From Moorella sp. Hama-1 (GTDB taxonomy: Bacteria > Bacillota > DSM-521 > Neomoorellales > Neomoorellaceae), in the NCBI RefSeq assembly GCF_023734095.1, contig NZ_AP024620.1:1298501-1362500 (forward strand): a DNA stretch of 64,000 nucleotides, in the 5' to 3' direction. Both the position numbers and the translations under genes were made by a program. The notes below the pieces were generated by a model. The model was given only the letters and a program-made list of their open reading frames with translations. It was not told where the DNA came from and did no database searches. Shown here one piece after another: positions 14,215 to 55,765 of this stretch; the first letter of the stretch is position 1, and each line of letters opens with the position of its first letter.

Positions 14215-14290
14215 AGGGGTGTAGCTCAACTGGTAGAGTAGCGGTCTCCAAAACCGTTGGTTGCGGGTTCGAGCCCTGCCACCCCTGCCA
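14215..14290 (+). tRNA. tRNA-Trp (anticodon CCA)
   Basis: Acceptor AGGGGTG pairs with CACCCCT; D arm GCTCAACTGGTAGAGT; anticodon stem GCGGT/ACCGT (one G-T pair) around CTCCAAA gives anticodon CCA; T arm GCGGG-TTCGAGC-CCTGC; discriminator G and encoded CCA. It stands alone between its promoter and a strong terminator. Confidence 0.96.
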
Positions 14291-36706: not shown

Positions 36707-36782
<76 letters not shown>

Positions 36783-36787
36783 AAAGA

Positions 36788-36864
36788 TGGCGCGCCCGAC
36801 AGGATTCGAACCTGCGACCTCCGGACTCGGATTCCGTCACTCTATCCAGCTGAGCTACGGGCGC
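36788..36864 (-). tRNA. tRNA-Arg (anticodon CCG)
   Basis: Minus strand: acceptor GCGCCCG / CGGGCGC, D arm GCTCAGCTGGATAGAGT, anticodon stem CGGA/TCCG with loop ATCCGAG giving anticodon CCG, T arm GCAGG-TTCGAAT-CCTGT, discriminator G and encoded CCA. First gene of the pair with tRNA-Lys. Confidence 0.95.
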
Positions 36865-47147: not shown

Positions 47148-47160
47148 GATGCTCCCTCCC

Positions 47161-47580
47161 CCGAAATAGATGTGTGAGGTTGGAGGTGAGAGGCTTGTCG
47201 AAACTGGCTGCGCCAGTTTCAGATTAAAACTTGCCCGCCTCTCATTTCTTTCCTTCGTTGGTGGTGATCTGCCACCATGGTCGGCTCCCCCGAAAATAGA
47301 CTTCTGCTAAAATGGTGATTACTAGCCTTCCTCGGCGGCGGGGGTGGCTTGTCTTTATCTCTTTGATCAATCATAACGGGGCGTGGTACTTCTCGTTCCT
47401 GAAGCCACGTTACGATCCCCATCCCGTTCACCGCCGCGAAGCTCAAGGCTTCGCTGAGTTTGCTACCGCCTCGAACCAAGTCGCCCTCCGCCTGTACCCA
47501 TCCAGCCCCTGCCTCAGCCCACATTTTCATAGGTCGCTGGCGGGGGCGTCAGCCCCCATGAGGGGCTCCCCCGTAATGAG
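47161..47580. repeat. Modular intergenic repeat, copy A (between feoA and its promoter)
   Basis: The gap 47148-47770 is non-coding. Positions about 47168-47265 hold a module shared with copy B: TGTGTGAGGT, CTTGTCGAAACTGGCTGCGCC, AGTTTC, CTTGCC. Positions 47326-47510 hold the core shared with copies B and C: GGCGGCGGGGGTGGCTTG, CACGTTACGATCCCCATCCC, GTTCACCGCCGC, TTCGCTGAGTTTGCT, CTCGAACCAAGTCGCC, CCAGCCC. Positions 47516-47570 are a tail shared with copy C (GCCCACATTTT, GTCAGC-CCCATGAGGGGCTCC). The left arm of the core is diverged here. It lies in the 5' leader of feoAB. Confidence 0.85.
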
Positions 47581-47721
47581 ATGCGAGAAGTGGGAAGTTA
47601 GAAGCGGGATACCACATTCTAAGCGTCAAGCAACTTTACATTTATTACCTATACTTATGCCCGGTTTGATGGTACATGTCAGGCGGCAATTGAAAAACGT
47701 TATCAATTAGCTCCTGTAGAT

Positions 47722-47750
47722 ATATTAGAGTAAATGATAATCAATGTCAA
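47722..47750 (-). promoter_or_regulatory. feoAB promoter with Fur-box-like operator
   Basis: Minus strand TTGACA (47750-47745), 17-base spacer, TAATAT (47727-47722). Inside it, TGACATTGATTATCA (47749-47735) resembles the 7-1-7 Fur box, with two to three mismatches. No gene other than feoAB lies downstream. A transcript from here would have a leader of about 570 bases containing repeat copy A. This also explains why the repeat is not the promoter. Confidence 0.65.
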
Positions 47751-47761
47751 TGGGATGACGC

Positions 47762-47788
47762 AAAAAAGCATCACTTTTTGGTGATGCT
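47762..47788 (-). terminator. Terminator of the DnaI-like gene
   Basis: Minus strand AGCATCAC, loop, GTGATGCT followed by TTTTTTG. The stop codon at 47771 is in the loop of the hairpin, an economical overlap. Confidence 0.88.
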
Positions 47789-48583
47789 TTCGCGGCTGAG
47801 GGTATAACGAATGTCTTCGGCCACCGGCAAGTGGTAAGACTGGCAGAGCTGGACGATACGGGAAGTGGTCCGTTCTCCCAGGTATTCTTCCAGGTCCTTC
47901 AGGTCCAGGTTACTCGTTATGACCGTCGGCAGCTCGTTAATTAAGCGGTAGTTAATCAAAGAGTAGATTTTATTACAGGTCCATTCCGTGTAGTTATGGG
48001 CGCCCAGATCGTCAAGGACCAGGATACCTACCCCCCGGGCTGTATCAATGAGTTCGAGTTCAGTCTGGTTGTTATCCTGGGGACGGCGGTCGTAGGTGGC
48101 GCGAATGGCGTCCAGGAGATCCGGTACTACGGCAAAGAGAACCTCTTTCCCGGCGGCAGTAAGGGCATTGGCGATGGCTGCCGCTAAAAAGGTTTTACCG
48201 CTGCCTACCGGCCCAAAAATAAAAAGGCCGCGGCCATGCTCTTCCCGGCGGAAGGTAGTTACAAAACGTTGCGCAGCCTCCAGGCAATGGCGCGCGCTTT
48301 CATAATAGGTAGTACCGGTTAATTCATCCCGCAAGGTACGTGAGTAGTACTTCAGGTCAAAGTTGGAGAAGGTATAGCGGCTGAGCTGGGGCGCCAGGTT
48401 GGCCGCCCGCAACCGGTTCTGCCAGGCTTTTTGTTGCATACAGCGGCAGCGATAGGCGCGGCCGTCACGGATGATTAAGCCCCGATCCCGGCACAGGGGG
48501 CACCGGTAAGAGGTGGCAGCCGCCGGCATGTCCTGGCGCTGCCTTTTAACCAGTAATTCAGGGGGGATTTGGATTCTCTCCAT
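47771..48583 (-). CDS. DnaC/DnaI-like helicase loader ATPase
   Basis: A 270-residue AAA+ protein. A four-Cys zinc-like site occupies residues about 28-49 (CPLCRDRGLI, CRCMQQKAW). Walker A is GPVGSGKTFLAAAI, Walker B is ILVLDDLGAHNYTEW, and sensor 1 is VITSNLDLKDL. DnaI loads the replicative helicase and partners with DnaD; the DnaD-like gene precedes this one by 19 bases, so the two act in replication initiation or restart. Confidence 0.88.
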   Translation of the reverse strand: MERIQIPPELLVKRQRQDMPAAATSYRCPLCRDRGLIIRDGRAYRCRCMQQKAWQNRLRAANLAPQLSRYTFSNFDLKYYSRTLRDELTGTTYYESARHCLEAAQRFVTTFRREEHGRGLFIFGPVGSGKTFLAAAIANALTAAGKEVLFAVVPDLLDAIRATYDRRPQDNNQTELELIDTARGVGILVLDDLGAHNYTEWTCNKIYSLINYRLINELPTVITSNLDLKDLEEYLGERTTSRIVQLCQSYHLPVAEDIRYTLSRESITKK

Positions 48584-48602
48584 CCAGGGTCAAGCCTCCA
48601 TT

Positions 48603-49352
48603 TTAGCCTTCCAGGTTGAGGCGGTAAAGGTCCCGGTACTTATCCCGTGTCGGAGGCTGGTTTTCCGGTTTAGCCCGCCGGGGTTTCCTTTTGTTCTTTT
48701 GCTCATCGTGGGCCATGGCCTGGGAGACGCTACGGATATTATGGCGCAGCCAGTCCCGGAGGATAGAATCAATATACCGGAAGTTAAGGGCCCCTCGCAG
48801 TACGGCCCGGCGCAGGGCTTCCTGCAGCAACTCTACGGACAGGTGTTCATTCTGGCACCATTCCCGGAGCTGGTCGCTTTCCAGGGGGGAGAGGGGCCGG
48901 CCGAACTCTTTTTCAAAGGTACGGTACAATTCCCCCTGTTTATTTGCCGTGGCCGCACCCTCCGCTTGAGGCTCCGCTGGCGGGGTATAATCCCCCAGGG
49001 CAATCCGGGTCAGTTTGGTCCACAGGGGGGCAAAGGAAAAGGTATTCTGCCAGCGGCCCAGGACATGGTTGTAATAGGGCTCCACAGCCAGAAATTTCTT
49101 TTCAATCAGGGAGGCGACCAAGTTCTTGATCTCTTCTTCATCCAGGCTCATATACTGGCGGAGCTTTTCCGGGGTGGGGAAACGTTCCTGTTCCACCTGG
49201 CGCCAGTGAAAGAGATGGATTAAAACCATCATCTCTAATTCCGTCAAGCCCAGGCGGGTGTAAAATTTTAATAACATGTCGGGAATAACCAGACTGCCAC
49301 ATTCCAGCATGGCTGTCGTCAGCAATTCGTAATTATTACCAGTGATAACCAT
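48603..49352 (-). CDS. DnaD-domain replication protein
   Basis: A 249-residue protein with an N-terminal winged-helix part (LLKFYTRLGLTELEMMVLIHLFHW, PTPEKLRQYMSL) and a C-terminal DnaD/DnaB-like domain (FEKEFGRPLSPLESDQL, WCQNEHLSVELLQEALRRAV, FRYIDSILRDWLRHNI). This pairing is typical of DnaD. ATG 49352 is chosen since GGAGGGAAAAGATA precedes it; the upstream ATG is poorer. It is a helicase-loading cofactor and is cotranscribed with the DnaI-like gene. Confidence 0.88.
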   Translation of the reverse strand: MVITGNNYELLTTAMLECGSLVIPDMLLKFYTRLGLTELEMMVLIHLFHWRQVEQERFPTPEKLRQYMSLDEEEIKNLVASLIEKKFLAVEPYYNHVLGRWQNTFSFAPLWTKLTRIALGDYTPPAEPQAEGAATANKQGELYRTFEKEFGRPLSPLESDQLREWCQNEHLSVELLQEALRRAVLRGALNFRYIDSILRDWLRHNIRSVSQAMAHDEQKNKRKPRRAKPENQPPTRDKYRDLYRLNLEG

Positions 49353-49444
49353 TATCTTTTCCCTCCCCTGGAAGCTCATAGCAATACTTAATTATAACAT
49401 CAGTTGCCGCTATAACCAAAGACAGCCAGAGGTTGTCAGGGGCA

Positions 49445-49472
49445 TTGCCTCAACCGGATTTTCGTTTATAAT
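49445..49472 (+). promoter_or_regulatory. Promoter of the ATPase/Asp23 gene
   Basis: TTGCCT (49445-49450), 16 bases, TATAAT (49467-49472), then AAGGGGAGGT before ATG 49501. Confidence 0.6.
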
Positions 49473-49500
49473 TATTTTAGTTAAGGGGAGGTAAAATCCC

Positions 49501-50334
49501 ATGGAGGTTATTGCCCTCGTTGGTCCCAGCGGTAGTGGTAAGAGTCACCGGGCCCTGGCCGTTGCCCGGGACTATGCTGCCGATGCCATAATTGATGATG
49601 GTCTGTTAATCCGGGGCAGTCGTATCCTGGCCGGCACCTCGGCCAAGGAGCAACCGACCCGGGTAGGGGCTATTAAAACAGCCCTTTTCAGTGATCCCGA
49701 ACGGGCCCGGGAAGTCCAGGAGTGCCTGGCGGCCATCAATCCCCCCCGGATCCTGGTCATCAGTACCTCCCGGGAAATGACCCGGCGCATTTGCGACCGC
49801 CTGCAAATCCCGCAGCCCGCCCGCTGGATAGATATTACTGAGATAGCCACCCCCAGGGAGATCAACCGGGCCCGGCAGATCCGGAGCCAGCTCGGTAAGC
49901 ACGTCATCCCGGCACCGACGGTGGAAGTAAAGCCACGATTTAGCGGGCCCCTCATGGAACCCCTGCGCACCTTCCTGCGCCGGCACCAGGCGCCACCGGG
50001 GAAGAGCCGTAACCTGTGGGTGGAACAGACTACCGTGCGTCCCACCTTTAACTCCCTGGGGCATTTCTATATTGCCCAGAACGTAGTGGCCCAGCTGGCT
50101 GGTTATCTGGTAACAAGCGGCGGTTTAAGCAATTCCCGGGTCCAGGTGGAAACCCGGGAAGGCAATCTGGTCCTTAACCTGGAGGTAACCGCCCCTTACG
50201 GCGTTTTTCTACCGCCCCTTTTGCAGGCGGCCCAGAAAAGGGTGAAAACAACTATTACAAATATGACAGCCCTGGAGGTGGAGGCTGTCAATATTACCGT
50301 TAGCGGCCTCAAGTTGCAGGATAAACAAGCTTGA
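49501..50334 (+). CDS. P-loop ATPase fused to an Asp23/Gls24 domain
   Basis: A 277-residue protein. The first 130 residues form a P-loop domain: VALVGPSGSGKSHRALA is the Walker A; IIDDGLLIRGSRI and RILVISTSREMT follow. Residues about 175-275 form an Asp23/Gls24 (envelope stress) domain: NSLGHFYIAQNVVAQLAGYLV, VQVETREGNLVLNLEVTAPYG, AAQKRVKTTITNMTALEVEAVNI (cut). Asp23 proteins usually stand alone; this fusion is unusual. It ends one base before the stop of the convergent nuclease gene. Function unknown; a role in envelope homeostasis or precursor activation is a guess. Confidence 0.8.
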   Translation: MEVIALVGPSGSGKSHRALAVARDYAADAIIDDGLLIRGSRILAGTSAKEQPTRVGAIKTALFSDPERAREVQECLAAINPPRILVISTSREMTRRICDRLQIPQPARWIDITEIATPREINRARQIRSQLGKHVIPAPTVEVKPRFSGPLMEPLRTFLRRHQAPPGKSRNLWVEQTTVRPTFNSLGHFYIAQNVVAQLAGYLVTSGGLSNSRVQVETREGNLVLNLEVTAPYGVFLPPLLQAAQKRVKTTITNMTALEVEAVNITVSGLKLQDKQA

Positions 50335-50335
50335 G

Positions 50336-51946
50336 CTAACTGGCTCTTTCCTTCAGGCCCTGTTCTACCAGGGCCTCTATTTGTTGGAGCTTGCGGTTAA
50401 GCCCGGCATAATCTCCGCTGGCAAAGCCGGCCTCGATCATAGCCTTGAGCTGGACCAGGAGCCGCTGGTAAGTAGCTTCTGCTGCTGCGGCCGTTCCGGC
50501 GGCTGCCAGGGCTGCTGCCGGCGCCGGGGCGAGCTCCGCCCTTCCGGGCAGTAGCTGGACGACATCCAGCCATCCCGGTACTTCCGCCGCCAGGCCCAAT
50601 TCCGTACGTAACAGGCGGGCGAAATCCCCCGCCGCCTCAGGTTCACCGTGGGTGACAAATACCCTCCGGGGCGGTTGGCCGAATGACTTAACCCAGTTCA
50701 AGAGACCCTCCTGATCGGCATGGGCGGAAAAGCCGTCGATACTGACGATTTCAGCGCGGACGGCGATTTCTTCCCCGTGGATGCGTACCCGCTTCTCCCC
50801 TTCCAGCAGCCGCCGGCCCAGGGTACCGGCCGCCTGGTAACCGACCAGGAGAACGGTGGCTTCTGGCCGCCAGAGGTTATGCTTCAGGTGATGCTTAATC
50901 CGGCCGGCATCGGCCATGCCGCTGGCCGAAATAATAATCGCCCCGCTGTGGATTTTATTGATGGCCATGGATTCCTCCGCCGTGCGGCAGAGGTGCATAC
51001 CGGGCAGGTAAAAGGGGCAGGTACTGCCATTATGGCTTAAATCCTTGGTATCGGTATCAAAGTACTTCTGGTGCCGGCAAAAGATCTCCGTGGCGGCAAC
51101 CGCCAGGGGACTGTCCAGGTAGAGGTTATCCACCTGGATAGCACCCCGCTGCAGGAGGACGTTCAGGGCATAGAGCAGGTCCTGGGTACGTTCAACGGCA
51201 AAGGCCGGGATGACCAGGTTGCCACCCTTTTTCCTGGCAGCCAGGATTACCTCTTTGAGGCGTTCGATTTTATCACCCTGGATATTATGGCGACGGTTGC
51301 CATAGGTGGATTCCATCACCAGGTAGTCGGTAGCTTCAATGGCCGCCGGGTCATTGACGATAGGCTGACCTGGATTCCCCAAATCGCCGGAAAAGGTAAT
51401 CTTGCTTTCCCGGCCCTCGTCCTGGATCCAGATCTCGGCCATAGCCGAGCCCAGGATATGGCCGGCGTCCTGGAGGCGCAGGCGGACGCCGGGCAGGATC
51501 TCCTGCTCCTGCTGGTAGTCTATGGTGTGGAAGTTATTCAGGCAGGCGGCGGCCTGCGCGGCCGTATAAATGGGTGTCAGTAAGGGCAGGCCGGCGCGGC
51601 TGTTTTTACGGTTCTTCCGCTCGACCTCCATTTCCTGGATGTGGCCGCTGTCGGGGAGCAGCACCCGGGCCAGATCGGCGGTGACCGGCGTCGTATAGAC
51701 GGGGCCTTTAAAGCCCTGGAGATAGAGTTTGGGGATCAGGCCGCAGTGGTCGATATGGGCATGGGTCAGGACCAGGGCGTCGATATCGCCGGGGTTGAAG
51801 GGAAAGGGACCGTAGTTACGTTCTTTAATGGCTTTGGAGCCCTGAAAGAGACCGCAGTCAATGAGCAACCGGTGACGTCCGGTATCCAGGAGGTAACAGG
51901 AACCGGTTACCGTCCCGGCGGCGCCGCAAAACTGGAGTTTAATCAT
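50336..51946 (-). CDS. MBL-fold beta-CASP ribonuclease-like protein
   Basis: A 536-residue metallo-beta-lactamase fold nuclease. The zinc site is THAHIDHCGLIPKLY (residue 60 region), with DAGHILGSAMAEI and FSGDLGNPGQPIV as further ligands. The beta-CASP domain has NLVIPAFAVERTQDLLYAL, SASGMADAGRIKHHL and FSAHADQEGLLNW, the terminal His motifs. The last 85 residues are an alanine-rich helical extension. Members process RNA (CPSF73/YsmA-like group); the target here is unknown. Confidence 0.88.
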   Translation of the reverse strand: MIKLQFCGAAGTVTGSCYLLDTGRHRLLIDCGLFQGSKAIKERNYGPFPFNPGDIDALVLTHAHIDHCGLIPKLYLQGFKGPVYTTPVTADLARVLLPDSGHIQEMEVERKNRKNSRAGLPLLTPIYTAAQAAACLNNFHTIDYQQEQEILPGVRLRLQDAGHILGSAMAEIWIQDEGRESKITFSGDLGNPGQPIVNDPAAIEATDYLVMESTYGNRRHNIQGDKIERLKEVILAARKKGGNLVIPAFAVERTQDLLYALNVLLQRGAIQVDNLYLDSPLAVAATEIFCRHQKYFDTDTKDLSHNGSTCPFYLPGMHLCRTAEESMAINKIHSGAIIISASGMADAGRIKHHLKHNLWRPEATVLLVGYQAAGTLGRRLLEGEKRVRIHGEEIAVRAEIVSIDGFSAHADQEGLLNWVKSFGQPPRRVFVTHGEPEAAGDFARLLRTELGLAAEVPGWLDVVQLLPGRAELAPAPAAALAAAGTAAAAEATYQRLLVQLKAMIEAGFASGDYAGLNRKLQQIEALVEQGLKERAS

Positions 51947-51980
51947 AATTCCTCTCCCTTGAAAAAACTGAGGGGCCGGC

Positions 51981-53195
51981 TCAGGCCTGGGCTGCTACCC
52001 GCTGGTTGCAGGCCAGGCGCCGGGAGACGAAACGCTCCATACGGTTCATGGCCTCCGTCAGGTCGGCCAGGGAGGCGGCGTAGGAGCAGCGGATGAAGCC
52101 CTCGCCGCTGGCACCAAAGGCTGTCCCCGGGACGACGGCCACTTTTTCTTCTTTAAGCAGCTCTTCGGCAAAGGTGGTTGCATCCAGGCCGGTGGCGGCT
52201 ATGGAGGGGAAGATGTAAAAGGCCCCCCGGGGTTCAAAACAATCCAACCCCATTTCCCGCAGGCGGCTGTAAACCAGGCGTCGCCGCTGGTCGTACTGTT
52301 CCACCATGCGGTCGACGTCCTGGCTACCGTGGCGCAGAGCCTCCAGGGCCGCCATTTGGCCCATGACGGGGGCGCAGAGGATGGTATACTGGTGGATCTT
52401 CACCATGGCGGCCAGGAAATCGGGATGGGCGGCTACGTAACCGACCCGCCAGCCGGTCATGGCAAAGGCCTTGGAAAAGCCGCTCACCAGGATGGTCCTG
52501 TCCTGCATGTCGGGTAAGGAGGCAAAGGATAGCGGCTGGCCTTCGTAACGCAATTCCGCATAAATTTCATCACTGATCACCAGCAGGTTATACTTGATCA
52601 CCAGCCGGGCAATGTCCTGCATTTCTTCCCGGTTGAGGACGGCGCCGGTAGGGTTATTGGGAAAACAGAGGAGCAGTACCTTGCTCCTGGGCGTAAGGTA
52701 TTTCTCCAGGCGGGCGGCAGTGAGGGCAAAATTATCGGCTGCGGTCGTCGGGATGGTAACCGGGACACCACCGGCCAGCTTTGTTATGGGTTGGTAGGAA
52801 ACATAACAGGGCTCGGGGATCAGCACCTCGTCCCCGGGGTTTAATACGGTCCGTAACGCCAGGTCAACGGCTTCGCTGGCGCCGATGGTAACCATGATCT
52901 GTTTCAGGGGATCATAGCTCAGGCCGAAACGCCGTTCCAGGTAAGCAGCAATGGCCTGGCGCAGTTCTGGTAAGCCATAGTTGGAAGTATACATGGTATA
53001 ACCCCGCTCCAGGGACTGGACGCAGGCCTCGCGAATATGCCAGGGTGTCACGAAATCGGGTTCCCCTACCCCCAGGGAGATTACCCCTTTGGTATTGGCT
53101 ACCAGGTCGAAAAAGCGACGAATACCTGAAGGTGGTAGATTCTTGACCACCGGTGCTATAAAACGCTGGGCTTCAAAACCATGGGAGATAGTCAT
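51981..53195 (-). CDS. PLP-dependent class I aminotransferase
   Basis: A 404-residue fold type I enzyme. SLGVGEPDFVTPWHI and SNYGLPELRQAIAAYL are near the N-terminus; CFPNNPTGAVLNREEM and SDEIYAELRYEG bind PLP; SGFSKAFAMTGWRVGY carries the catalytic Lys (residue 245 or so). This resembles alanine/aspartate aminotransferases of Firmicutes. It overlaps the Lrp gene by 4 bases (ATGA). Both lie behind a T-box whose specifier codon appears to be GCC (Ala), which supports an alanine role, though aspartate or another substrate is not excluded. Confidence 0.88.
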   Translation of the reverse strand: MTISHGFEAQRFIAPVVKNLPPSGIRRFFDLVANTKGVISLGVGEPDFVTPWHIREACVQSLERGYTMYTSNYGLPELRQAIAAYLERRFGLSYDPLKQIMVTIGASEAVDLALRTVLNPGDEVLIPEPCYVSYQPITKLAGGVPVTIPTTAADNFALTAARLEKYLTPRSKVLLLCFPNNPTGAVLNREEMQDIARLVIKYNLLVISDEIYAELRYEGQPLSFASLPDMQDRTILVSGFSKAFAMTGWRVGYVAAHPDFLAAMVKIHQYTILCAPVMGQMAALEALRHGSQDVDRMVEQYDQRRRLVYSRLREMGLDCFEPRGAFYIFPSIAATGLDATTFAEELLKEEKVAVVPGTAFGASGEGFIRCSYAASLADLTEAMNRMERFVSRRLACNQRVAAQA

Positions 53196-53677
53196 GGTTG
53201 TAACACCTGCCTCCGGTCTGCTTCCTGGTCTTCGAAGATAACGCCATCCTGTTTGTATCTTTTTAAGATAAAGTGGGTCATGGTGCTCTGGACGTGCTCC
53301 AGAGTCGCCAGTTTCTGGGAAACAAAGGAGGCTACCTCTTTAAGGCTTTTGCCCTGGACCAGGACGGAGAGGTCATACCCCCCCGACATAAGAAATACGG
53401 ACTTTACCTCCGGGTAGCGGTAGATGCGGCTGGCAATTTCATCGAAACCTAAATCCCGCTGGGGGGTGACCTTGACGTCAATGAGGGCCGCCACCTCTTC
53501 TTCACCGGCCTTCTCCCAGTTGATCAGGGTGTGATAGCGCAGGATGATCTTTTCTTCTTCCATGGAGGCTATTTCCCTGGCTACCTGGTCTACCGGCAGG
53601 GCCAGCATAATGGCGATTTCTTTGGCAGTTAACCGGCCGTTGTTTTCCAGGAGATCGAGGATCTTTTTACGCATCAA
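53192..53677 (-). CDS. Lrp/AsnC-family regulator
   Basis: A 161-residue regulator: an N-terminal HTH (ILDLLENNGRLTAKEIAIML, VDQVAREIASMEEE) and a C-terminal AsnC ligand domain (AALIDVKVTPQRDLGFDEIA, VKSVFLMSGGYDLSVLVQGK, VQSTMTHFILKRYKQDG). Such proteins bind amino acids. It precedes the aminotransferase gene in an overlapping operon. A repeat copy (53692-54046) and a T-box lie upstream. Confidence 0.9.
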   Translation of the reverse strand: MMRKKILDLLENNGRLTAKEIAIMLALPVDQVAREIASMEEEKIILRYHTLINWEKAGEEEVAALIDVKVTPQRDLGFDEIASRIYRYPEVKSVFLMSGGYDLSVLVQGKSLKEVASFVSQKLATLEHVQSTMTHFILKRYKQDGVIFEDQEADRRQVLQP

Positions 53678-53691
53678 ATAATCTTCCTCCG

Positions 53692-54046
53692 AAATGGAAT
53701 GTGTGAGGTGGGAGTTGAGAGGTGGGATACTTGTCGAAACTGGCTGCGCCAGTTCCTGAATTAAAGCTTGCCTACTCCCATTTCTCCCGTTCGCTGCGGG
53801 GCTGGTGGTACAAGCTCCGGGCTCCGTGGTTCTCGGCGAGCAAACTTGGCGCTCAGTTGCTTAAGCGGCGGGGGTGGCTTGACTTTATCTCATCGAATAA
53901 GCGTAGCGGGAAGCGGAACTCTTCGTTTCTCAATTTACGTTACGAACCCCATCCCGTTCACCGCCGCTGCGCCGCGGCTTCGCTGAGTTTGCTAACGCCT
54001 CGAACCAAGTCGCCTTCCGCTTGTACCCGCCAGCCCTTCCGCTAGC
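53692..54046. repeat. Modular intergenic repeat, copy B (between T-box and Lrp gene)
   Basis: The gap 53678-54365 is non-coding apart from the T-box. Positions 53697-53800 hold the module shared with copy A (GTGTGAGGT, CTTGTCGAAACTGGCTGCGCC, CTTGCC). Positions 53798-54035 hold the full core: GGGCTGGTGGTACAAGCTCC, GGTTCTCGGCGAGCAAACTT, GCGGCGGGGGTGGCTTGAC, CCCCATCCCGTTCACCGCCG, CTTCGCTGAGTTTGCT, CCTCGAACCAAGTCGCC, GTACCCGCCAGCCC. The left and right parts pair (GGGCTGG/CCAGCCC; AGCAAACTTGGCG/CGCTGAGTTTGCT with G-U). The tail of copies A and C is missing. Confidence 0.88.
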
Positions 54047-54049
54047 ATA

Positions 54050-54321
54050 AAATGAAAACCCCCCGCCCCATTGGTTTAAGGGACGAGAGGTTGTTCCCGC
54101 GGTACCACCCTCATTGGTCGTACGACCCGGCTTAAGGGCGCATCACTGCGCCTGGCCTTTAACGGGGCCAGCGTCCTGCCTTACGGTCCATACCTTTCCG
54201 GCGGCGGCTTGGGGGTGGCTTTCGGCAGGCCTGCCTCCGGGCTTCCACCGTCCCCGGTTCGCTACCTGCAGGGAAACTGCCTACTTCTTCCCGTCATTGC
54301 CTTTGGTCCTACTGAAATATT
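54050..54321 (-). promoter_or_regulatory. T-box riboswitch, alanine-type specifier
   Basis: On the minus strand the conserved T-box sequence AGGGTGGTACCGCGG lies at 54096-54114. Upstream is Stem I with AGCGAACCGGGG and GGTGGAAGCCCGG; the specifier loop reads GAAAGCCAC, so the specifier triplet is best read as GCC (54217-54219), alanine. Downstream an 11-bp terminator stem (CCTCTCGTCCC / GGGGCGGGGGG, with G-U pairs) is followed by TTTTCATTTT. Uncharged tRNA would block termination. The next gene is an Lrp-type regulator and an aminotransferase, not a synthetase. The promoter is a separate entry. Confidence 0.88.
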
Positions 54322-54327
54322 GATTTC

Positions 54328-54357
54328 ATTTTAGCATCAGTCAACCGGGACTGTCAA
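54328..54357 (-). promoter_or_regulatory. Promoter of the T-box transcript
   Basis: Minus strand TTGACA (54357-54352), 18-base spacer, TAAAAT (54333-54328), just upstream of the T-box Stem I. Confidence 0.75.
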
Positions 54358-54365
54358 TATAAATT

Positions 54366-55310
54366 TCAGGAAGATTGGCGCCAGGCGGCTTCACGGCGCA
54401 GGCGCCGGGCCAGGTAAGCGGGATTGGTCAGTTCGTCGTCGGCAACCTGACGGATGCTAATCCCCTCCTGCCGGCAATAGAAATCGTGGCGCCAGTCATG
54501 GCGCCAGGTAGCCAGTTCAAAACCTAACTGGCGCTGGGGTAAATAGAAGGTGATTTTACCCCCCCTGGTTTCATAATCCCGGATGATCTCTTCACCGGGA
54601 TAGGCCTGGAGTAGTGCCAGGTACAGGGCCTCTACAGCATCATCCAGGACGCCGGCGTTATCTTCCTGGGTGGCTTCCTGGTTACTGGTCCCATCGACAA
54701 TAGTTGCCTCCCCCCCCGGTAAGGTGTCATCTATTGCAGGAGAAGCCTCGGCAATGGTCGGTTTTGGAGTTGGCGTCGGCTCTTGTTCTGCCACCGGGGC
54801 GGTAGTTGTTTCCAGGGCGACGGTTTCTTCAGGTTCCTCAGCCTCTTCCTCCAGGGCGGCCACCGGGACTTCCTCCCCGAACGGGCTCGAATCCGTTTCT
54901 TCGTTAACTGGTTTCGCGACCGGAGCACTGTTGTCGCCGGGAGCACCCTCGCCGGGGGTAGCTGTGGCGGCCCCGGCTGGCTCATCTTTCTCTTCCTGCC
55001 GGGATGCCAGGTAGCTGGCGATACCATTACTAATCATCTGCTGGATGTCCCGGGGAAAGTTACCAAAGCTCTGCAGGATACGGCGATCAGGCAGGCGCTG
55101 GGCAATTAGCTGCTCAAGTAAAGCCTGCAGGTGCTCCTCCCGCCCTTCCAGAACTTCCAGGAGCAAATCGCCCATTGCCTGCACCAGGGAAGCGCCGCGC
55201 TTTAACTGTGCTTCCCGGGTAACTTCATCCTTAAGACTGCTGGATATGGCACACTGGACCAGTTCATCGATGCGCTGCAGGATCTCATTCTCCAATCTTT
55301 GACTGCGCAC
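54366..55310 (-). CDS. Hypothetical protein with long disordered middle
   Basis: A 314-residue protein. The N-terminal 130 residues are helical (LENEILQRIDELVQCAISSSL, AMGDLLLEVLEGREEHLQALLEQ shortened). Residues about 135-225 are low-complexity and acidic, rich in Glu, Pro, Ala and Thr. The C-terminal 90 residues form a compact domain (EALYLALLQAYPGEEII, GGKITFYLPQRQLGFELA, CRQEGISIRQVADDEL) that looks nuclease- or Vsr-like in pattern but without sure motifs. GTG 55310 follows AGGAGGTGG. Function unknown. Confidence 0.55.
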   Translation of the reverse strand: MRSQRLENEILQRIDELVQCAISSSLKDEVTREAQLKRGASLVQAMGDLLLEVLEGREEHLQALLEQLIAQRLPDRRILQSFGNFPRDIQQMISNGIASYLASRQEEKDEPAGAATATPGEGAPGDNSAPVAKPVNEETDSSPFGEEVPVAALEEEAEEPEETVALETTTAPVAEQEPTPTPKPTIAEASPAIDDTLPGGEATIVDGTSNQEATQEDNAGVLDDAVEALYLALLQAYPGEEIIRDYETRGGKITFYLPQRQLGFELATWRHDWRHDFYCRQEGISIRQVADDELTNPAYLARRLRREAAWRQSS

Positions 55311-55398
55311 TATAATCCACCTCCTGGCAGCTGTTCCTCCCATCAGTTTATGCGCTAGGGTGAAGGGTAAGAACTAGTAATTTCTAGCCGCCTAGATA

Positions 55399-55432
55399 AA
55401 AACCCCCGGGTTATTGACAACCCGGGGTTTTT
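55399..55432 (-). terminator. Bidirectional terminator after the metF operon
   Basis: CCCCGGGTT / AACCCGGGG with a 6-base loop, with A-rich left and T-rich right flanks, so it can work on both strands. On the minus strand it ends the metF transcript after repeat copy C. Confidence 0.85.
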
Positions 55433-55447
55433 ATCGTTTATATCCTG

Positions 55448-55755
55448 TCTGGGGGCTGGTGGGTACAGGCTCCAGGCTCCGGTGGTTCTCGGCGAGCAAA
55501 CTTAGCGCTCAGCCTTCCTCGGCGGCGGGGGTGGCTTGACTTTATCCCTTTGAGCAATCATGACGGGGCGTGCTACTTCTCTTTCTTGAAGTCACGTTAC
55601 GATCCCCATCCCGTTCACCGCCGCCGAAGCTAGCGGCTTCGCTGAGTTTGCTTTACGCCTCGAACCAAGTCGCCTTCCGCCTGTAGCCTCCAGCCCTTCT
55701 GCCCACATTTTTGTGGTTTCGTGGCGGGGGGCGACAGCACCCATGAGGGGCTCCT
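55448..55755. repeat. Modular intergenic repeat, copy C (downstream of metF)
   Basis: The gap 55344-55765 is non-coding. The core spans about 55451-55700: GGGGGCTGGTGGGTACAGGC, GGTTCTCGGCGAGCAAACTT, CCTCGGCGGCGGGGGTGGCT, CACGTTACGATCCCCATCCC, CGTTCACCGCCGC, GGCTTCGCTGAGTTTGCT, CCTCGAACCAAGTCGCC, GCCTGTAGCCTCCAGCCC. Its outer arms pair (GGGCTGG/CCAGCCC, ACAGGC/GCCTGT), and AGCAAACTTAGCG pairs with CGCTGAGTTTGCT. The tail shared with copy A spans 55701-55755 (GCCCACATTTTTGTGG, CACCCATGAGGGGCTCC). The A/B upstream module is missing. Confidence 0.88.
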
Positions 55756-55765
55756 TATTAATGCT

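Follow-up and report, generated by a model that had tools for sequence, protein, structure and literature searches.

Small bacterial repeats are mostly thought to be tolerated through their harmless landing between genes. IS200/IS605-like elements and REP/RAYT have hairpins near their ends and insert next to a short sequence that is fixed, and they are not known to duplicate their target. Mycobacterial interspersed repetitive units (MIRU) are described as small, apparently mobile sequences that insert at start codons, hardly affecting the gene, and carry a short open reading frame (ORF), coupled at a spacing of -4 nt (PMC12548453). The YPAL (RU-2) elements of Yersinia, of ~168 bp, have internal inverted repeats, generate target duplications of 3-26 bp at sites of dyad symmetry and are not AT-rich; their mobiliser is unknown (PMC2229807). 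The portion of the BOX report used here presents the pneumococcal elements as modular (order A-B-C), structured, expressed and equipped with terminal inverted repeats, one of them forming a composite with T-box riboswitches, and that portion describes no Shine-Dalgarno (SD) target (PMC3049150).

The repeats analyzed here were found in a stretch of 64,000 nucleotides of the Moorella sp. Hama-1 genome, hereafter the window. They belong to a non-autonomous interspersed repeat in the broad sense, with dispersed copies, unrelated flanks and empty sites in relatives, and among the small repeats of this class the SD target and the SD duplication set them apart. MIRU is, by analogy, the closest functional parallel, since both insert at translation starts and spare the downstream gene. 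Compared by description, the Moorella element differs from MIRU in that it duplicates an SD, is ~348 bp long and has a long rod-like core, and the overlap of the MIRU ORF with the downstream start codon is absent from it, as its mini-ORFs mostly end within 16 codons. With YPAL it shares internal rather than terminal inverted repeats, target duplications and a composition that is not AT-rich, but YPAL targets dyad symmetry and this element an SD. The T-box association of BOX, as given in that portion of the report, is paralleled by one window copy that lies behind a T-box. Unlike IS200/IS605 and REP/RAYT, the element duplicates its target, and the genome has no Y1 transposase match. No paper describing these repeats was found in a literature search.

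Organization of the intact element

The element was read on the strand of the neighbouring genes, which is the minus strand; the initial annotation of this DNA, made from the sequence alone, had read it on the opposite strand, which is not its functional orientation. The flanks of all copies gave the layout SD-like heptamer, head, core, tail, SD-like heptamer, with GGAGGAG as consensus at both ends. An intact element of ~348 bp thus comprises a head hairpin, a rod-like core of ~245 bp and a tail (median length 348 bp; SD-to-SD span 352-358 bp in twelve copies). The head reads CCCCTCATG GGGGC-TGAC-GCCCCC ...GAACAATGAAAATG..., the core GGGGCTGG.GGGTACAGG...CCTGTACCC.CCAGCCCC and the tail ...CCATTTTTGGTAGAAGTCTATTTTC or ...TTTTTGCCAGAACCCTATTTTC, with the terminus CTATTTTC. 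The element ends CCCCTCATG... and ...CTATTTTC are not complementary, and the inverted repeat is internal. The earlier proposal of a MITE-like element is therefore correct as to dispersal, empty sites and target duplication, and like a MITE the element is non-autonomous, intergenic and foldable. A strict MITE it is not: it has no terminal inverted repeats, is not AT-rich and has no known link to a transposase.

The left SD is followed by a head ATG in 58 of 67 copies, and the mini-ORFs, mostly of at most 16 codons, end far upstream of the gene. We discarded the idea of a conserved leader peptide, because the reading frames differ although the ATG is common; no reading frame conserved across copies was found. 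None of the copies retrieved was a longer version carrying an internal ORF. No head or tail could be recognized at 15 cores, and some copies are without one end or one SD.

Several arrangements deviate from this layout. In seven classified copies (L002, L008, L035, L086, L096, L098 and L108) the core runs opposite to head and tail, as if the hairpin core could flip in place. At L022, L090 and L093 an element is inserted at the terminal SD of another element, in tandem. Chimeric copies at L017 (near 2060), L118 and L123 have the other half of the core swapped for an unrelated GC-rich module, GGGCGCTGGTTGCGCCC...GCGCCAAGGCGCCCTCCGGGAACC, which is a third interspersed module. A different insert upstream of glyA in two other genomes (L213 in G002, L216 in G001) has GCGACTTGGTTCGAGCG in common with the core, together with a head-like hairpin of its own, CCCTCATGCCGCTAATGCGGC; it probably represents a related family in other Moorella-like genomes.

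The three copies in the window

The core motif lies at 47417-47436 (copy A), 53947-53966 (copy B) and 55604-55623 (copy C), at the three places where the initial annotation had put its repeats. The parts of each copy, in window coordinates, are as follows.

Copy A
47566-47572, minus strand: left SD heptamer GGGGGAG (captured SD), an exact match, the same as the right heptamer
47510-47565, minus strand: head, with hairpin GGGGGC-TGAC-GCCCCC
47324-47509, minus strand: core, with the 3' arm (about 60 nt) missing at 47323/47324 by comparison with intact copies
47292-47323, minus strand: tail ...ATTTTAGCAGAAGTCTATTTTC (tail search match 1345785-1345807)
47285-47291, minus strand: right SD heptamer GGGGGAG (target duplication)
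47163-47284, minus strand: family 2 repeat inserted behind copy A, with hairpin GAAACTGGC-AGCCAGTTTC at 47192-47220
47156-47162, minus strand: terminal SD GGGGGAG, preceding the ATG (47147) of a 92-aa ORF
Copy B
53798-54036, minus strand: complete core; head and tail lost
53691-53797, minus strand: family 2 repeat, fused straight to the core (family 2 match 1352275-1352295)
53684-53690, minus strand: terminal SD GGAGGAA, before the start (53677/53674) of a 161-aa Lrp/AsnC-like ORF
Copy C
55751-55756, minus strand: left SD AAGGAG
55697-55750, minus strand: head (head search match 1354227-1354253)
55452-55696, minus strand: complete core; tail and right SD lost

The 92-aa ORF behind copy A is, by eye, presumably FeoA-like. 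In copy C the core is followed by a terminator-like hairpin in place of the tail. Direct repeats of 114 and 53 nt are common to the three copies.

All three are deletion or fusion derivatives of the intact element, which explains their modular look. That description was apt: A consists of head, truncated core, tail and family 2, B of a core fused to family 2 behind a T-box, and C of head, core and terminator-like hairpin. The long imperfect inverted repeat reported for all three exists in B and C; copy A is missing one arm of the outer stem (about 60 nt), so that GGGCTGG...CCAGCCC and AGCAAACTTAGCG...CGCTGAGTTTGCT are not both present in it. The outer ends, the SD bounds, the second repeat family and the supply of an SD to the next gene had been overlooked.

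The T-box next to copy B is a full-length leader at 54076-54306 on the minus strand (80.4 bits, E=1.3e-16, below the gathering score of 93). It is located upstream of the Lrp/AsnC-like and aminotransferase-like ORFs, and copy B is lodged between it and the gene. Four tRNA genes (Gln, Trp, Lys and Arg) are present in the window, at 423-496, 14215-14290 and 36707-36864.

Copy number and spread

The three repeats are worn members of a family of small mobile DNA with ~90 copies in this genome, and the count of three, correct within the window, was a local view. With at most 2 mismatches allowed, a 20-nt core motif has 88 occurrences in the 3,324,617 bp, far more than chance would give, and its reversed control pattern has 0. 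At least 44 matches were obtained with a 316-bp BLAST query, for which 40 of 165 candidates were scored. At no more than 1 mismatch the motif is present in 8 of 10 other genomes of the genus (15 copies in G005, 9 in G006 and 1-5 in each of the remainder). Outside the genus, at the same threshold, it was found 4 times in a genome of another genus of the same family and 3 times in one genome of a more distant family. A variant motif gave three loci in a scan of GTDB contigs, all in one Clostridia MAG. The repeat had zero matches in IMG/VR, plasmids and phages.

One pair of copies is 99.4% identical and another 97.5%, and the similarity of their flanks is no higher than that of random pairs. Near-identical copies within unrelated flanks point to recent movement of the element. 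They also exclude, for those copies, a segmental duplication. That the copies are segmental duplications of a gene remnant, named by the initial annotation among the findings that would overturn its reading, is contradicted by the 99.4% pair; repetition is all that speaks for it, the constant ends at SDs and the lack of a conserved reading frame speak against it too, and we consider it extremely improbable.

Probable insertion into Shine-Dalgarno sequences

The joined flanks of the elements were compared with the genomes of the genus. At the glyA junction, relative G005 reads ATATAAGTAATTTTCGAAGGAGGCC and this genome ...TTTGCTAAGGAG-element-GAAGGAGGCC. An empty site of G006 with 95% identical flanks reads AACATTTCGAGAGGAGGTTTAGC, against AACATTTCCGGAGGAG-element-GGAGGAGGTTTAGC here. 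G005, G006 and further relatives have empty sites with one SD where the glyA, lysC-like, folD and efp junctions are occupied here, and at the rplJ-rplL junction the element is likewise absent in relatives (we take these gene names from the translated sequences and not from a family search). As orthologous sites without the element carry one SD, the duplication, of about 7 nt at the SD, is seen against unoccupied relatives and goes beyond what flanks alone would suggest.

These empty sites are our main evidence for SD duplication, and heptamer statistics lend support. In the copies with both ends defined, left and right heptamers are identical in 16 of 67 (9.7 expected on random re-pairing, p=0.003), in a set where copies are partly non-independent, some of those in G005 and G006 being orthologous, and where part of the match is expected since an SD is conserved in itself. 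When both heptamers depart from the consensus, 6 of 28 pairs are identical (GTAGGAG, AAAGGAG twice, CGAGGAG, GGGGGAG twice; 0.82 expected, p=5e-5). Clear non-consensus duplications number only 8 over both families.

In 44 of 67 copies the start of a same-strand ORF of at least 50 codons lies 8-23 nt downstream of the right heptamer, counted from its first base. The same test found 9 such starts past the left end on the opposite strand, and 9-19 when the position was displaced. At least 7 further copies run directly into the family 2 repeat described below, which has an SD at its own end. The SD of the downstream gene is the right one, so insertion leaves this gene with a start signal. Judged from these sequences, the element appears to insert into an SD in sense orientation and to duplicate it.

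We regard the repeats as very probably small mobile elements of a family, non-autonomous and inserting into SD sequences in sense orientation. An enzyme presumably supplied in trans would insert the element at 5'-(ATTT.C)GGAGGAG, either through a staggered cut of ~7 nt or through copying to the same effect. The captured left SD, 6 nt before the head ATG, would mostly open a mini-ORF of at most 16 codons. The right SD stands before the downstream gene, which keeps its ribosome-binding site, and the element would join the 5' leader or intercistronic RNA of that gene. This nearly harmless choice of site could have aided its spread. The element appears to target the most constrained intergenic bases and to return them duplicated. 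If confirmed, the target of this mobile element would be a translational one, and the element could enter tightly packed operons (the glyA, folD and efp junctions, rplJ-rplL) and place a folded RNA of ~350 nt between formerly adjacent genes. It would also be of relevance for expression design in Moorella-type acetogens.

A second repeat family

The repeat found behind copies A and B belongs to a second family (family 2), ~120-130 bp long, whose head is of the kind found in the first family and whose tail ends in CATTTC. It has at least 59 copies in this genome, 22 in G007, 7 in G008 and 0 in the other eight members of the genus. Some copies show SD duplication, for example GCAGGAG or TGAGGAG on both sides. 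The two families have different cores, and they have their ends and SD target in common. In both, a purine run after the head (GAAAATG or GAAATGAG) could pair with the tail (CTATTTTC or CTCATTTC), and the 3' end may thereby close a stem at the insertion junction.

That two families share only ends and target would also fit an enzyme-free dispersal, in which SD-flanked DNA spreads by template switching during replication or by short-homology recombination at SDs; the target indeed matches the terminal ~7-13 nt of the element. However, such a process needs neither the very constant ends nor a conserved head and core, and ~90 full or partial copies are many for it. We find this explanation quite improbable.

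Structure of the core

The fold of an intact copy is far more stable than that of shuffled sequences on the gene strand (z=-6.7) and on the other strand (z=-5.5). A set of 50 pairs was taken from folds common to both strands and evaluated on 65 cores from several species, where 91.4% of the cells are paired. The arm differences said to preserve pairing are borne out: 21 pairs changed on both sides, against 8.7 in shuffles (0 of 500 as high), with 70 double-change cells against 23.4, and far fewer when slid. One core pair is G-C in 28 sequences and A-U in 25. Each outer arm fits its own partner better than the partners in other copies (8.30 versus 6.63, SD 0.13). RNAalifold on the core alignment recovered 34 pairs and thus the rod only in part; misalignment of the outer arms seems to be the reason.

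The suggestion of a structured RNA is in so far supported that pairing in the core is kept through compensatory changes. This is no proof of RNA function, since pairing in an inverted repeat can persist by copying of one arm from the other. G.U and A.C on the gene strand are about equal over all shared pairs (149 versus 143) and differ in the well-aligned pairs (87 versus 45), a strand test that only hints at RNA on the gene strand.

Strong folding with covariation, the location before genes and the weak G.U excess in well-aligned pairs could be read as a cis-regulatory RNA, i.e. a conserved riboswitch- or attenuator-like leader controlling downstream genes. Yet these genes are unrelated to each other, the same genes are without the element in relatives, near-identical copies stand at unrelated genes, and G.U and A.C are equal when all shared pairs are counted. 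Covariance models of Rfam, HEARO, riboswitches and group II intron parts among them, gave no relative for the window copies and six other loci at E<=1; the only matches were the T-box next to copy B and, by chance, sX5. A role of this kind for the family is very improbable in our opinion, although individual copies may have been co-opted for regulation. In the mobile-element reading, which we favour, the folded core would be kept because the element needs it for its own movement, as RNA or as DNA hairpin, and not for regulating one gene.

Candidate mobilising enzymes

The element provides a concrete case in which to ask what mobilises orphan intergenic repeats. The absence of terminal inverted repeats argues against a DDE transposase. 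The Y1 transposase (PF01797) has no match in this genome (G000), in G005 or in other repeat carriers. Searched across the genus, neither Y1 transposase nor reverse transcriptase (RT) follows the copy number of the repeat, and no mobilising enzyme was found among these candidates. In this genome there is a single intact RT of a group II intron, along with a fragment; G009 has 13 RT matches and 1 core copy, and G007 (84% complete) has no RT match and 22 family 2 matches.

The intact RT could nevertheless act in trans on host mRNA from which the element is copied, in a SINE-like, RNA-mediated route that is conceivable but does not look likely to us. The GGAGGAG after the tail would here anneal to the CTCCTCC strand of another SD and prime reverse transcription, a step that we hold to be as doubtful as the route itself. 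Sense orientation, the SD target and the lack of terminal inverted repeats are compatible with it, as are the 5'-shortened copies with intact tail and SD that exist in the family and are expected for reverse transcription. However, at one locus the G005 copy of ~35 nt looks like a shortened orthologue, so the dispensable 5' side is also lost by deletion, while selection retains the SD. Internal deletions and a 3'-truncated copy are present as well, and RT counts in the genus (G009, G007) do not track repeat numbers. In its full form, a bacterial SINE-like retroelement targeted by base pairing of the SD of its mRNA with other SD sites, the start signals being the insertion address, the idea seems rather unlikely.

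As to the RT itself, the locus L223 (G000:C1:624889-625584) is a group II intron whose RT ORF is intact and which includes a domain-V-like sequence, and G005 has an RT with the same score. This intron looks like it sits inside an IS21-type element.
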